Virus record (IMG/VR): IMGVR_UViG_3300037087_000086
Span: 1 to 34,376 of that record
Origin: a virus
Length of the DNA stretch: 34,376 nt
Reading direction: 5' to 3' (one strand)
Part shown: positions 6,302 to 33,120 of the stretch, one piece after another
How the letters are laid out: each line of letters starts with the position of its first letter
Numbering within the stretch: the stretch's first letter is position 1
The notes under the pieces: generated by a model
The model's database searches: none
The model's input: only the letters and a program-made list of their open reading frames with translations
Told to the model about the DNA's origin: nothing
Program-made: the position numbers and the translations under genes

Positions 6302-6934
6302 ATGGCCGACACGAAGATCAGTGCGTTGACCGCCGCAGCTGCGGTCGCAGACGCGAACGAGATCCCGATCAACGAGGCGGGGACGACGAAGAAGATCACG
6401 GCGCTCCAGCTACGCGCCTATTCGGGAGACGGGCTTTTCAACGCATCGGTAGCAGATCAGGCCATCAGTGCGACAACGGCCTATGTTGCGGGATCGAATA
6501 TAGCTGTTCCCGTTGGCCTTCTTCGGATCAAAACAGCTTTCCGATGGACGTTGCACGTAACAAAGTCTGCGGCTGGCGTGACGGCAGGTTGCGCTATTCT
6601 TTTCAAACTCGGAACCCTTGGAACGACGGGCGACGCGACTATCCTGACGTTCACCTTTGGAACTCCAACGGGAGTAGCCGACACCGCGATATTCGACGTA
6701 CTGGTCATTATCCGTGGTCCCCTCTCTGCATCATGCATCGCGACGGGTGCGGCGAACATGGCGCATAACCTTGCGGCAACGGGATTTTCAACCCTCCCGA
6801 ATGAATCAAAGCAGGCGACGTCCGGCACATTCAACGCGACAACCGCGAACCTGATCGCTGGACTTACGATCACCACGACTACACTGTCAGTGTGGACCGT
6901 GACCGGCTGTTACGTGGAGGCGATGAACCTGTAA
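6302..6934 (+). CDS. Beta-rich virion surface protein, copy 1
   Basis: A 210-aa protein that opens ADTKISALTAAAAVADANEI, an N-terminal attachment-like motif common at the start of phage structural proteins, and continues with a beta-rich domain (LLRIKTAFRWTLHVTKSAAG, then alternating G/S/T strands, ending in TVTGCYVEAMNL). The domain resembles those of 15261-15788 and 16964-17551 in length, strand pattern and final aromatic strand. I infer a family of capsid decoration or fibre-like proteins. The start at 6302 lies 1 nt after the previous stop; the following ATG overlaps its TAA. Confidence 0.65.
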   Translation: MADTKISALTAAAAVADANEIPINEAGTTKKITALQLRAYSGDGLFNASVADQAISATTAYVAGSNIAVPVGLLRIKTAFRWTLHVTKSAAGVTAGCAILFKLGTLGTTGDATILTFTFGTPTGVADTAIFDVLVIIRGPLSASCIATGAANMAHNLAATGFSTLPNESKQATSGTFNATTANLIAGLTITTTTLSVWTVTGCYVEAMNL

Positions 6935-8175
6935 TGGCTGACCGGCTGCTGCTCGAATACCCTACCAAGATCCTCCTCGAAACGGCAGACAGCCTTCTTC
7001 TTGAGGACGGCACATTCCTCCTCAACGAGGCATCTGCTGCATCGGCCACGGACGCGGTCCAGCTCCAGGACGCCAGCGGCGTCATCCTCCTTGAAGGCGC
7101 AACGACTGTAGCCTACACCCTCACCGCGCAATTCGGCGCTTTCGCCTTCTCCTCGCAAACCGCCGGCCTCGTCGTCGCACGCACACTCTCCGCGTCTCAG
7201 GGCTCCTTCACCCTCACGCCGAAAACCGTCACGCTTACCGTCGCCCGCAAAGTAACGGCTACCTTCGGCGCATTCGTCCTCACGAGCGAGACCGCATCCC
7301 TAACTGTCGCCAGACTTCTTTCAGCCTCCTATGGCGCTTTCACGCTGACGCCCGAGACCGCAGGACTGAAAGCCGCGCGAACGCTCACGGCTACCTTTGG
7401 CGCGTTCACCTTCACCGGAGAATCCGCTACGCTCCTCTGGGCTACGGCCTCGCACGCCTATGAGCTGACCTCACTCTACGGCTCCTTCGCGCTCACCGCG
7501 GAGAACGCTACCCTTGCCGTGGCCCGCCTCGTGTCCGCTACTTACGGCTCTTTCACGCTTTCCGCGCAGACCGCGGGTATCACCGTTGCGCGCACGCTGT
7601 CCGCGGCTTATGGTGCATTCGCCCTTTCCTCCGAGACCGCCGAACTCTCCGTCGGCCACTGGCTGAACGCCGCCTACGGAGCATTCACGCTCACCGCTGA
7701 GTCCGCGGACCTCTCCGCTGCCCGAATCCTCACCGCCGACTACGGAGCCTTCACCCTATCCGGCCAGGATGCGGCGCTCACTTATCACTCGGCAAGCCAG
7801 GTCGACTACGTGCTGGACGCCGAGACCGGATACTTCACGCTGTCGGGCTCCGACGCGGGACTCATGTACGGCGCGCTGCCCGCTGCCGTCAAGCCTCCGC
7901 GCGAGGAGGGCATCCCCGATTCCTTCTCCCGCGGCCTTCCGAGCCTCCCCTTCCGCCCGCGGCCCCGGGAGGCAGTCCTCTACGCGCTCAAGGCAAAGAC
8001 CGGACGCCTGCACCTCACCGGCCGCCCGGCAACGCTCGGCCTCGGCCGCACGCTTTGGACGACCGGCGCCCGCTACACGCTCAAGGGCAATGACGCTGAG
8101 CTTTCCATCACGCGCAAGGCTCCCCAGCGCGCGCGACAGCTCGCCGCACTACTCAGACTTACGGAGGCCGCATGA
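6934..8175 (+). CDS. Tandem 22-residue beta-repeat protein
   Basis: A 413-aa protein. An N-terminal part rich in LLLE/ILLE motifs (about 1-55) is followed by eleven tandem units with the approximate consensus R-x-L-[ST]-A-x-[FY]-G-[AS]-F-x-L-[ST]-x-[EQ]-[ST]-A-x-L-x-x-A (about residues 61-312). Units 5 and 10 carry 5-6 residue insertions that end in a Ser/His-containing turn. A proline/arginine-rich linker and two degenerate units close the protein. The repeats predict a solenoid of short beta strands, suggesting a surface or fibre-like virion component; no enzymatic motif is seen. The ATG at 6934 overlaps the previous TAA by 1 nt. Confidence 0.75.
   Translation: MADRLLLEYPTKILLETADSLLLEDGTFLLNEASAASATDAVQLQDASGVILLEGATTVAYTLTAQFGAFAFSSQTAGLVVARTLSASQGSFTLTPKTVTLTVARKVTATFGAFVLTSETASLTVARLLSASYGAFTLTPETAGLKAARTLTATFGAFTFTGESATLLWATASHAYELTSLYGSFALTAENATLAVARLVSATYGSFTLSAQTAGITVARTLSAAYGAFALSSETAELSVGHWLNAAYGAFTLTAESADLSAARILTADYGAFTLSGQDAALTYHSASQVDYVLDAETGYFTLSGSDAGLMYGALPAAVKPPREEGIPDSFSRGLPSLPFRPRPREAVLYALKAKTGRLHLTGRPATLGLGRTLWTTGARYTLKGNDAELSITRKAPQRARQLAALLRLTEAA
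7114..7869 (+). repeat. Coding repeats, eleven units of about 66 bp
   Basis: These bases encode the eleven 22-residue units of the protein above. The GAF/GSF core (for example TATGGAGCATTCACG-type codons for YGAFT) recurs every 66 bp, with two longer units of about 81-84 bp. Units differ at many synonymous positions, so the array is old or has been diversified rather than freshly duplicated. Confidence 0.75.
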
Positions 8176-8453
8176 TGTCCTGGGAATCGATCACCGCAAT
8201 CGCAACCCTTGTCCTCACCATAGGCGCGTTGATCGCATTCTACATGCGGCAGGGGAGCCTTATGGCAACAGTGCAATCCGATCTTACCGCACAGGAAAGA
8301 CGGACCAATGAAATAACGGTGACCTTGAAGGATCAGGGTCTCCTCATCGCAGCACACGCGACGTCTATCACCGCGCACGAGGGGAGCTTCAAGGTGATCG
8401 ATGTGAAGCTCGATAACATCAAGGAAGCCGTCGACAAGCTGGGGTGCAAATGA
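8172..8453 (+). CDS. Membrane-anchored small protein, holin-accessory candidate
   Basis: A 93-aa protein with one clear transmembrane helix near the N-terminus (about residues 6-24, ITAIATLVLTIGALIAFYM) followed by a helical, probably coiled-coil C-terminal region (SDLTAQERRTNEITVTLKDQ onward). The arrangement resembles small phage membrane proteins found next to endolysins. It overlaps the repeat-protein gene by 4 nt (ATGA) and is coupled in the same way to the candidate lysis enzyme that follows. A role in lysis is inferred from position; a purely structural role is possible. Confidence 0.55.
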   Translation: MMSWESITAIATLVLTIGALIAFYMRQGSLMATVQSDLTAQERRTNEITVTLKDQGLLIAAHATSITAHEGSFKVIDVKLDNIKEAVDKLGCK

Positions 8454-9025
8454 GCGACCGCCTCGTCATCCGTATCACGCGCTCCCGCCTCTCCCTGCAG
8501 CCCCTGCGCGATCCCTTGAAGCCTCCCGCGTGGGACAACAACGACGGCAACAACTCCCTCGATCAGTTCGGCCTCTACGCGGACGACGGCGTGGCGGGCA
8601 ACCGCTACATCCCGCTATTCACCTGCCGCGCGCAAACCGTGTGCAATCTCGAAGGACTCGCCGCAGGCTCGCAGTCGGTTGACGCGCACTACTCCGACAC
8701 CATCGCGCCCGGCCCCTTCCAGCTTCGCGCATTCGTCGACCCGCGCGCCTTCTGGTGTACCCCGCACGGCGTGTGCAACACGCAAACCCTTGCCGGTGAC
8801 ACCATCGGCCCCAACTGCGTCACGCGCACGAATCCCAACCGCTGGCTGATGCACGACTGGCGCAAGCTCAAGCCGCAGCCAGACGCACAGGATTGCCGCG
8901 TGGCATGGAGCGCCGGGTGCATCGTGGTAGCCGACGCGGACCTCGAGCGATTCTCGCAGCTTCTCCTTCACCACGGAATCACCCCCGGCGACCTGATCTC
9001 GGGGGAAATCATCATGGAGGCATAG
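8450..9025 (+). CDS. Candidate peptidoglycan-active lysis enzyme (SxGC-type)
   Basis: A 191-aa protein starting with the ATGA overlap at 8450. It contains HYSDTIAPGPFQLRAF in the middle and a C-terminal block with MHDWRKLK, then DCRVAWSAGCIVV. The spacing of a histidine and an S-x-G-C motif recalls the L,D-transpeptidase/YkuD-like active site. Six cysteines are present, which could mean periplasmic disulfides, but no signal peptide is evident. It sits among small membrane proteins in a likely lysis block. I infer a cell-wall enzyme acting as endolysin; no standard lysozyme or amidase motif is present, so the call is tentative. Confidence 0.45.
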   Translation: MSDRLVIRITRSRLSLQPLRDPLKPPAWDNNDGNNSLDQFGLYADDGVAGNRYIPLFTCRAQTVCNLEGLAAGSQSVDAHYSDTIAPGPFQLRAFVDPRAFWCTPHGVCNTQTLAGDTIGPNCVTRTNPNRWLMHDWRKLKPQPDAQDCRVAWSAGCIVVADADLERFSQLLLHHGITPGDLISGEIIMEA

Positions 9026-9029
9026 AGAG

Positions 9030-9326
9030 ATGAGTGACCCTGTTTCAAAAGCGGAGGCGACAATCGTGAAAGACGCGAAAGTCGCATGGGCGCGCCTGAA
9101 AGCGCTCTGGGCATGGATCTACCGAGAGGCGGGCCTTGTGCTTTCCGTGTTCAAGGTGCCCGACAAATCCAAGTACAGCGCCAAGCGCGTGATCGCCCTC
9201 GGCCTCGCGGTGGACGCCATTTTCTTCACCGGCTTCTCCAGCGAGGTTTACGCGATCATCATCGTCTCGGCAAAGCTCGCGGTGGCCGCCGGCCTCATGG
9301 TTCTGGCCGAAGTGACCAAGACATGA
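9030..9326 (+). CDS. Two-helix membrane protein, holin candidate
   Basis: A 98-aa protein with a polar, basic N-terminal half followed by two predicted membrane helices at about 53-68 (RVIALGLAVDAIFFTGF) and 73-94 (YAIIIVSAKLAVAAGLMVLA). Small two-helix proteins beside an endolysin are typical holins or antiholins. The start has the RBS GGAG upstream (at about 9016-9019), and the end overlaps the next gene by 4 nt. No family is recognised. Confidence 0.55.
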   Translation: MSDPVSKAEATIVKDAKVAWARLKALWAWIYREAGLVLSVFKVPDKSKYSAKRVIALGLAVDAIFFTGFSSEVYAIIIVSAKLAVAAGLMVLAEVTKT

Positions 9327-9583
9327 TCAGAACCATCCTCAAGACGCTCGGGGACTTCTTCCTCGACAGGAACGGCGACGGCGACGAGAAGCGCTTCTGG
9401 GGCAACGTCCTCATGGTGTGCGTCGTCTATGTCGTTGTCATGAACAAACCTGGTCCCGAGATGTGGGCGACGGCAGGCGGACTCCTTACCGCGGCCTCCG
9501 CTCTTCTCTGGAAAGCATCCAGCGCCGACAGCAAGGCTCCGCCGAGTGCGCCGAGCAATCCGACGCAGGGCCAGGTCGGCTGA
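9323..9583 (+). CDS. Small membrane protein, second holin candidate
   Basis: An 86-aa protein starting at the ATGA overlap with the previous gene. It has a polar N-terminal segment with DRNGDGDEKRF (about 15-25, resembling a calcium-loop sequence but unpaired), then two hydrophobic stretches at about 29-41 (VLMVCVVYVVVM) and 48-66 (MWATAGGLLTAASALLW), and a proline/serine-rich tail. The topology and placement suit a holin/antiholin partner. The stop overlaps the ATG of the next small gene (TGATG). Confidence 0.55.
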   Translation: MIRTILKTLGDFFLDRNGDGDEKRFWGNVLMVCVVYVVVMNKPGPEMWATAGGLLTAASALLWKASSADSKAPPSAPSNPTQGQVG

Positions 9584-9678
9584 TGGACATCCCCACCCTG
9601 CTTTTCGTAAGCGGCTTCACTCTCGGCGCCCTTCTTATGCTCGCGGCATTCGTCTTGAAAGATAGGGGGAAACCTTGA
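9583..9678 (+). CDS. 31-residue single-helix membrane peptide
   Basis: A very short gene bounded by overlaps on both sides: TGATG at its start and TTGA at its end. The product is a hydrophobic helix (about residues 4-25, PTLLFVSGFTLGALLMLAAF) followed by a basic tail KDRGKP, so it would insert with the positive end in the cytoplasm. Its place in a chain of lysis-like genes suggests a lysis accessory peptide. The function is unknown. Confidence 0.55.
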   Translation: MDIPTLLFVSGFTLGALLMLAAFVLKDRGKP

Positions 9679-10079
9679 AAGGAAAATGGTATGAGTACCT
9701 TGCGTGCATTGCTCTTGGCGTTGTGCTTTGCTTTTTCGTCTCTCTCGGTGCAAGCGCAAAGCTCCGCTCCGATCTTGCCGGGGTCCGAACTTCTTTGGAG
9801 CAATCTCAACGGGATCGCGCTGACCTTGCCGACAGCCTACGACTCGTTCATAGCCAGCTTGACCGGGCAAATCAACTTTCTGGCGCTCAACAATCAGAGC
9901 TTGCAGGACAGCAACGCACAATTAGCGGGCAGCAACAAATCATTGACGCTCAGAAACGCGGACTTGCAAAACTCGCTGGCGATCTCGCAAGCGCAGGTAG
10001 TGACATCGGAAAACAAATCCGCGCTTTTGCAGAAGGCTTTAGACGACTCTATAGCATATACCATCCAGGCGGAAAATGA
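9675..10079 (+). CDS. Rz-like inner-membrane spanin candidate, overlapping gene
   Basis: A 134-aa protein from a TTG start (TTGA overlap with the previous stop; AGGGGG lies 5 nt upstream). It has a short cytoplasmic N-terminus, one membrane anchor (about 8-28, YLACIALGVVLCFFVSLGASA) and a long helical, Q/R/L-rich periplasmic domain that should form a coiled coil, as in Rz-type i-spanins. Most of the gene (9691-10079) is also read in the +1 frame by the next gene. Lambda Rz/Rz1 has the same +1 nesting. Spanins join inner and outer membranes at the end of lysis. The family assignment rests on topology, not on sequence match. Confidence 0.6.
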   Translation: MKGKWYEYLACIALGVVLCFFVSLGASAKLRSDLAGVRTSLEQSQRDRADLADSLRLVHSQLDRANQLSGAQQSELAGQQRTISGQQQIIDAQKRGLAKLAGDLASAGSDIGKQIRAFAEGFRRLYSIYHPGGK

Positions 10080-10218
10080 CGCGAAGGCGATGGGCCTGCA
10101 GCTCGGCATCTGGCGCGGGGTGGCGGTCGTCGTAGGCATCGCGGCGGCCGACGGGGCGGTGAAGATTTTCACGGGCAAGGATGCCGTGGAGTGGTTGATC
10201 TCGCTTTTCAGGAAATAG
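9691..10218 (+). CDS. Secreted coiled-coil protein read in +1 frame over the spanin gene
   Basis: A 175-aa protein with a strong RBS (AAAGGA at 9678-9683, 7 nt before the ATG). A type I signal peptide is visible (residues 1-23, ending SVQAQ). A long N/Q/S/L-rich helical region follows (about 60-125), and a hydrophobic helix lies near the C-terminus (about 142-160, GVAVVVGIAAADGAVKIF). Periplasmic rod plus C-terminal membrane helix is the topology of unimolecular spanins, but there is no proper lipobox: the only cysteine near the start is in LALC, with leucine at -1. It shares 389 bp with the spanin-like gene in another frame. Partner spanin is the best guess. Confidence 0.6.
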   Translation: MSTLRALLLALCFAFSSLSVQAQSSAPILPGSELLWSNLNGIALTLPTAYDSFIASLTGQINFLALNNQSLQDSNAQLAGSNKSLTLRNADLQNSLAISQAQVVTSENKSALLQKALDDSIAYTIQAENDAKAMGLQLGIWRGVAVVVGIAAADGAVKIFTGKDAVEWLISLFRK

Positions 10219-31735: not shown

Positions 31736-32938
31736 TCACTTCATCACCCACATCTGCTGGTCGGCGCTGAAACTGCTGACGATTGTGCTTGCCGTATCCA
31801 TCTGCCAGAGCGTGCCCGCCTGATGATAGTATAGCGCGCCCTCGATCAGCGACGGCTCAAGGGTGACCGCCTGCGCCATGCCCGTCGTTCGGTACCCGTC
31901 ACCCTGATAAAGAGGAGTAGCAGTGTGAAAGTTCACACCATCATTAGTTTCAAGGGGTGCAAGAGTATCTGTAATTGGTGTGTATTTAATGAGAAATCCA
32001 GAGACGCACTCAATAAAGTAAATGGAGTCTGAATCCGAATACGCAGAGAGCATAACGGGTGATTGCCCGCCATCATGATAGATAAATCCAGTGGCGGTCA
32101 CAAGTGGAGGAAATGTGCTTGCAAACTGCTTGAGCGCATTCGCGTAGGTCGTGAAGGTATGCGCGGTCGGGTTCCACATCTGCCCGATGCCATCGTACCA
32201 ATTGCCGTCGGCGGCCTGTATCCACGGCTGCCCGCCCCAGTCATTCACGTTGCCCCCGGTCGCGGTCACCGAATGCGAGCCCGTCTCATCGTAGACCGTG
32301 AGCGTGTTCGGAGTGCCCATGTCGGGGACGTAGAACAGCGGCCCGTCGGGGATCGCCCACTCGATTTGCGCATCGGTGAGCGCGCGGCTGATGTCGTGGA
32401 AATTGCCCTGATTGTCCACGGCGATGATATCGCCATTTTCCACGGTGTAGCTGTGGTCGTAGAACCACTTGCGCGTGTGCCAATCGCCTGACTCCACGCC
32501 GTCCTGCCAGATGCGCGTGTACCCTCCCCCTGACTGCGGAGGGGAGTAATCAAGGGCGAAGGCATCGGCGTTGGATATCGTCTGGAAGGTATAGACCACC
32601 GGGTCCCCGACGACGGCCACACCCGAGGGATCGGCGGGGAGGTTCATGGAGGAAGTCACACCCCCCGCGGCATCCAGGAAGTACAGCGTCTTGTCGACGG
32701 CGATCTTGCGCCCATTGCCGTGGACTGCCGCACCTGTTTTCCATGTCACCGCGTGCGTGCCATCCCAGAGCCTGACCGTGGACCCGTCGTAGAGCGCGGC
32801 GAGCACGGGACCTGTCAGACCTGCAGGAGGCGGTACCACGGGAGTTGTGGGCGGAGGTGTAGGCGGGAGAACGTTGATGATGGGCGCGGGGCACCCTACG
32901 ATGGCGAGAATGCAGACGATTCCAAGAATCCACTTCAT
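31736..32938 (-). CDS. Phage-encoded lipoprotein, beta-propeller-like
   Basis: A 400-aa protein that starts MKWILGIVCILAIVGC: a lipoprotein signal with lipobox IVGC at Cys16. A proline-rich linker (about 17-45) follows, then short strand-turn units with W/D/G (STVRLWDGTHAVTWKTG, KWFYDHSYTVENGDIIAVDN, GQPWIQAADGNWYDGIGQMW, YYHQAGTLWQMDTAS) that suggest a propeller. The ATG overlaps the XRE stop by 4 nt, with AAGGAAG upstream, so it is made in the lysogen with the regulator. Bases about 31917-32112 are much richer in A+T than the rest. I infer a lysogenic conversion or superinfection-exclusion lipoprotein; no known toxin or enzyme motif is seen. Confidence 0.78.
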   Translation of the reverse strand: MKWILGIVCILAIVGCPAPIINVLPPTPPPTTPVVPPPAGLTGPVLAALYDGSTVRLWDGTHAVTWKTGAAVHGNGRKIAVDKTLYFLDAAGGVTSSMNLPADPSGVAVVGDPVVYTFQTISNADAFALDYSPPQSGGGYTRIWQDGVESGDWHTRKWFYDHSYTVENGDIIAVDNQGNFHDISRALTDAQIEWAIPDGPLFYVPDMGTPNTLTVYDETGSHSVTATGGNVNDWGGQPWIQAADGNWYDGIGQMWNPTAHTFTTYANALKQFASTFPPLVTATGFIYHDGGQSPVMLSAYSDSDSIYFIECVSGFLIKYTPITDTLAPLETNDGVNFHTATPLYQGDGYRTTGMAQAVTLEPSLIEGALYYHQAGTLWQMDTASTIVSSFSADQQMWVMK

Positions 32939-33120
32939 GATTTCCTTCCTTTCGATTCGTCGTCGATCATCTTCAGGAGGATCAGGGACGAGCCTTTCGG
33001 GTGCGCGACATCCTGCTCCCATGACTGAACGGCGCGGATGCTCGTACCCAGTTTACGCGCAAGTGAAACCTGCGTATATCCCCCGCGCTTCCGTATGGCC
33101 TTGATCTCTTTTCCTGTCAT
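32935..33120 (-). CDS. XRE-family regulator of the lysogeny module, 61 aa
   Basis: A one-domain helix-turn-helix protein: MTGKEIKAIRKRGGYTQ, recognition region SLARKLGTSIRAVQSWEQD, then HPKGSSLILLKMIDDESKGR. It resembles the 54-aa regulator at 11156-11320 (20 of 54 aligned residues identical by eye). It lacks the protease-like C-terminal domain of LexA/CI repressors, so induction by self-cleavage is not expected. No Shine-Dalgarno precedes the ATG; a TAGTAT -10 box lies 6 nt upstream, so its mRNA should be leaderless. It is coupled by ATGA to the lipoprotein gene. A repressor role is inferred. Confidence 0.85.
   Translation of the reverse strand: MTGKEIKAIRKRGGYTQVSLARKLGTSIRAVQSWEQDVAHPKGSSLILLKMIDDESKGRKS

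Follow-up and report, generated by a model that had tools for sequence, protein, structure and literature searches.

Two long open reading frames in the lysis block of a phage fragment share most of their DNA, and the question they raise is whether both are genes and, if so, what two proteins encoded by nearly the same letters would do in lysis. The window, that is, the whole stretch of DNA analysed, is the 34,376-nt IMG/VR virus record fragment IMGVR_UViG_3300037087_000086, from a phage that has genes for tail sheath, terminase and portal. Frame 1 (9675..10079, + strand) has a TTG start and encodes an i-spanin-like type II protein of 134 aa, and frame 2 (9691..10218, + strand), in +1 relative to frame 1, has an ATG start and encodes 175 aa. 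The first-pass annotation had placed two such ORFs here, with 389 bp in common and a good ribosome binding site for each, and the sequence agrees on both points. The dual-coding overlap (9691..10079, + strand), constrained in both frames, takes up 96% of frame 1, an AGGGGG box precedes the TTG of frame 1 and an AAAGGA box lies 8 nt 5' of the frame 2 ATG. The TTG overlaps the TGA of a small upstream ORF (9583..9678, + strand; 31 aa, single TM) as TTGA, possibly reflecting translational coupling, and the start-stop overlap was seen again in three homologous contigs, as GTGA in L004 and L015 and as ATGA in L003. In two others, L002 and L012, the chosen frame 2 start lies 5 bases before frame 1, and later TTG/GTG starts are possible there.

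Scans of viral contigs, which reached saturation, found the same gene pair in six other contigs (L002, L003, L004, L012, L014 and L015), which with the window make up a small family of uncultured phages. Their identity to the window protein was 44–64% for frame 1 and 40–58% for frame 2. Both frames are open over 389–435 bp in all seven independent contigs, the window included, and homologs with one frame broken, which had been named as the observation that would speak against two genes, numbered zero among the six. No relatives of either protein were found among annotated phages and plasmids, nor any homologs of frame 1 in GTDB genome contigs. Four matches of frame 2 among annotated phages, Lactococcus tail proteins with E about 1, were dismissed.

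In the window alone, the second frame being open is only moderately unlikely and by itself weak evidence: frame 2 stays open in 7–44% of random synonymous recodings when frame 1 is fixed, and frame 1 in 1–4% when frame 2 is fixed. In the conservation test one protein alignment was fixed, the codons were resampled (30% kept at conserved residues) and the similarity in the other frame was scored. The other-frame identity was above the null by z = 4.5–8.2 in both directions for all nine pairs tested, the observed identity was reached in 0/2000 simulations, and the conservation of frame 2 equalled that of frame 1. Also fourfold-site identity within the overlap was high, 52–92% in all comparisons versus 32–41% in neighbouring-gene controls, the compared contig pairs not being phylogenetically independent. 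Between L004 and L015 it was 0.92 in frame 1 (p=6e-10), 0.76 in frame 2 (p=1e-4) and 0.38 in the flanking genes, a control in which the holin-like gene compared is that of L004/L015 but the endolysin that of L014/L015. The window and L014 gave 0.65 (p=0.002) and 0.72 (p=4e-4) for frames 1 and 2 and 0.32 for the endolysin, the window and L002 gave 0.77 and 0.79 with their own tail as control at 0.36, and L002 and L012 gave 0.69 and 0.52 (the latter not significant) with a control of 0.41. The synonymous-rate check suggested by the first-pass annotation came out with fourfold sites suppressed in both frames, consistently in frame 1, and in frame 2 significantly in the three closer comparisons and weakly in L002/L012. 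Because the conservation of each frame goes past what the other demands and fourfold sites are suppressed, the overlap is genuine dual coding, as well shown as sequence permits. Bearing on which frame is the older, high GC was seen at position 3 of frame 2 and position 1 of frame 1 in all seven loci, a hint of more ordinary codon usage in frame 2, but high GC at first positions is normal too.

In the window, a candidate endolysin and genes for three small membrane proteins precede the pair. The endolysin candidate (8444..9025, + strand) belongs to the phrog_26752 family and has a weak YkuD (L,D-transpeptidase fold) match. Besides the 31-aa protein, the small membrane proteins include two holin candidates, one of 98 aa (9030..9326, + strand) that weakly matches a family of phage membrane proteins (E 0.16), the other of 86 aa (9323..9583, + strand), proposed from its sequence and having no PHROG match. 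Homologs of the candidate endolysin occupy the equivalent position in L014 and L015, and directly upstream of the pair in L004 an M15 endolysin is clear (3e-25) and a small membrane protein matches a holin family weakly. By position, the locus is thus supported as a lysis cassette, most firmly in L004, the window endolysin being putative; the earlier placement in a lysis block holds chiefly through the M15 endolysin and the weak holin match of L004. Other genes were noted in the same region. A 93-aa protein with an N-terminal TM and a coiled coil (8172–8453; phrog_1009) lies upstream of the endolysin in the window, and similar small TM proteins are found at its position in L002, L003 and L004. 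It is preceded by a 427-aa protein of many LSAxYGAFTLTxExA-type repeats (6892–8175). A DUF261 protein (Pfam 3e-10) occupies the endolysin position in L002 (2247–2687) and possibly represents an unrecognised cell-wall enzyme family.

The description of frame 1 as i-spanin-like, with an N-terminal membrane anchor and a coiled coil, was borne out. A single N-terminal TM at about residues 7–27 (hydropathy 2.0–2.6) is found in all seven members, at about 9–27 in the window, and predicts a type II (N-in) topology with a periplasmic rod; AF2, run as single-chain models with low pTM (0.32), predicted a continuous helix over residues 5–129. The rod ends in a strongly conserved cationic amphipathic C-terminus, SDIGKQIRAFAEGFRRLYSIYHPGGK, which is DIGKQIRAxAEGFxRLYxIYHP-like in six members and diverged in L012, and its hydrophobic moment is 0.59–0.73 in 7/7. 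Members match the Rz-like spanin families phrog_214, 89, 739 and 1152, the best at 3e-4; these scattered matches are weak, a tape-measure family scores similarly, and they may reflect generic coiled coil. A cysteine sits midway in the frame 1 TM (window 9675–9760) of all seven members; it may have a function of its own or simply follow from the codons of the frame 2 signal peptide. The reading of frame 1 as a lipoprotein was rejected, because the residue at -1 to this cysteine is Leu in 6/7 (VVGC only in L002) and mostly hydrophobic residues continue past it.

For frame 2, the first-pass annotation had proposed a signal peptide, a rod, a C-terminal membrane helix and no lipobox, together with the label of a unimolecular spanin; the anatomy stood, with the proposed membrane helix as a C-terminal hydrophobic segment, and the label did not. 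The signal peptide is of the cleavable type and has SPase I-like sites at or near Q-S-S-x-P, and the single-chain model consists of one long predicted helix at 30–160, ~130 residues. The C-terminal segment has a hydropathy peak of at least 1.5 in 5/7, is under the applied cut-off in the other two, L004 and L012, and in the window is only moderately hydrophobic (KD 1.59). A lipobox is absent in 7/7 members. Likewise, neither protein has periplasmic cysteines in any member, all cysteines lying in TM or signal segments. Once cut by SPase I, frame 2 would sit in the inner membrane as a type I protein and has no known anchor in the outer membrane. A fold search with the frame 2 model gave no match and a search with only its tail module nothing convincing; frame 2 showed no homology to known spanins.

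To our knowledge, every recognised spanin system uses a lipid anchor. Since the lipobox is absent from all homologs, frame 2 lacks both the defining mark of an o-spanin and the lipoprotein signal of a u-spanin, and for this reason the pair is called a spanin-like variant and placed in neither class. The arrangement itself, a gene pair overlapped in +1 in 7/7 and placed in a lysis cassette by the context in L004, is that of two-component spanins. In 507/528 known two-component systems one partner or both have a periplasmic cysteine (PMC6139136), a feature that this pair does not share. As in lambda Rz/Rz1, a type II inner-membrane coiled-coil partner is combined with a second protein in +1 carrying an export signal, and the pair follows the endolysin. 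The lambda partner, however, starts 40–50% into the first gene, whereas frame 2 starts at about 4% of frame 1. Unlike Rz1, frame 2 outruns frame 1 and exceeds it in length, has no lipobox and ends in a putative C-terminal hydrophobic anchor, and unlike Rz/Rz1 the pair is without periplasmic cysteines in both frames. With the P2 LysB/LysC-type it shares a second gene that starts within the first in +1 and ends beyond it, but here the overlap is 96% of the first gene and the lipoprotein is absent. For its three analysed families, the 2018 survey gives overlaps of 70–155 bp. No report of a comparable lipid-free dual-coding pair was found in the open-access papers searched.

The best reading of these sequences is that the pair without lipobox would be a variant of the spanin strategy, extreme in the extent of its dual coding; in lysis it probably carries out the outer-membrane step, as a two-component spanin variant free of lipid. 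The N-terminus of frame 1 would hold this protein in the inner membrane, its rod and cationic amphipathic C-terminus extending into the periplasm, while frame 2 would be exported via its cleaved signal peptide and held by the C-terminal hydrophobic segment, its rod running opposite to that of frame 1. Pairing of the two rods would take place in the periplasm, where each has about 100 residues and, if helical, would measure roughly 150 Angstrom. On removal of the peptidoglycan by the endolysin, the free rod tips, namely the C-terminus of frame 1, GKQIRAFAEGFRRLY, and the N-terminal segment of frame 2, QSSxPI..SEPLWQALLPIAQTLP, would be brought against the outer membrane, which they would then disrupt or fuse with the inner membrane. 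We infer the rod pairing, the orientation, the tip action and the disruption of the outer membrane by the pair and also, both proteins being inner-membrane anchored, its contact with the outer membrane. More tentatively, the pair could represent a third spanin architecture, in which type II and type I inner-membrane-anchored helical rods with no outer-membrane lipid anchor are encoded by almost wholly the same DNA and disrupt the outer membrane with their tips.

Of 677 phages in the 2018 SpaninDB survey, 91 yielded no spanin (Kongari et al. 2018; PMC6139136), and a survey in 2025 again dropped spanin candidates without a lipid box (PMC12596118). A lipobox is a requirement of spanin searches. 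A conserved pair under selection that lacks one but fills the spanin slot would provide a search template for "spanin-less" phages and a concrete candidate for the way in which some of them breach the outer membrane. The pair is also a clean example from nature of two proteins, probably acting together, whose dual coding is near-complete.

The main rival to the two-component variant is that frame 1 is a conventional i-spanin with a lipoprotein partner elsewhere in the genome, frame 2 then being a separate overprinted lysis factor, for instance a membrane protein or a regulator. Frame 1, with the canonical layout of a type II i-spanin and its Rz-like matches, agrees with this, as does a 117-aa lipoprotein ORF 3.8 kb upstream of the pair in L004 and L014, and the window is a fragment from which a partner could be missing. 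We nevertheless regard it as unlikely: in the window the surroundings of the pair contain no lipoprotein ORF, the sole lipoprotein-like ORF in the 34-kb window is distant, on the opposite strand and 400 aa long, and no lipoprotein common to all loci was found in the seven contigs. Furthermore, frame 2 lies in +1 within frame 1, like embedded o-spanins, and is conserved equally with frame 1. The opposite-strand protein, of 400–428 aa (31736–33022, - strand), has a good lipoprotein signal (LAIVG↓C), a proline/threonine-rich start and no PHROG match.

Small coiled-coil membrane proteins of lysis blocks include regulators, and the pair has no direct functional homology; both points would fit a role in the lysis block other than at the outer membrane, for example holin/antiholin timing control or envelope protection. 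Such a role appears improbable, as the long rod-like periplasmic domains, and a position right after the endolysin and holin candidates that is kept through endolysin swaps, suit the spanin slot better.

That frame 2 alone is a unimolecular spanin, with frame 1 as an accessory, is slightly more improbable still. A u-spanin is defined by an outer-membrane lipoprotein signal together with a C-terminal TMD (PMC6139136). Frame 2 does have a signal peptide, a periplasmic domain and a C-terminal hydrophobic segment, and like u-spanins it has no periplasmic cysteines (PMC6139136). In particular, T1 gp11 shares with it the N-terminal export signal, the C-terminal membrane segment, a putative one in frame 2, and the lack of periplasmic cysteines. 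The u-spanin of T1 has a lipobox and a beta-rich domain, however, whereas frame 2 is an all-helical rod lacking a lipobox, and unlike gp11 it is co-encoded with an i-spanin-like protein. The absence of the lipobox in 7/7, the helical instead of beta-rich rod at 30–160 and the equal constraint on frame 1 speak against the earlier label. That one frame is the gene and the other a by-product of composition is hardly credible: a single contig could without great improbability have its second frame open, but the reciprocal conservation tests and the fourfold-site suppression in both frames contradict it.

Within the gene pair, the part of frame 2 beyond the overlap was the more changeable. This tail (10084..10218, + strand), a C-terminal hydrophobic/amphipathic module, occurs among the homologs in two exchangeable types, FTGKDxxEWxxSLFKK and YEGGxALxWW. 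The overlap is 99% identical between L004 and L014, yet only 12/37 tail residues match and their endolysins are different; because of this contrast, the frame 2 tail and the endolysin are regarded as exchangeable modules round a fixed dual-coding core. The comparison of L004 2992–3544, with its M15 endolysin, and L014 4001–4529, with a YkuD-like one, indicates recombination at both edges of the overlap.
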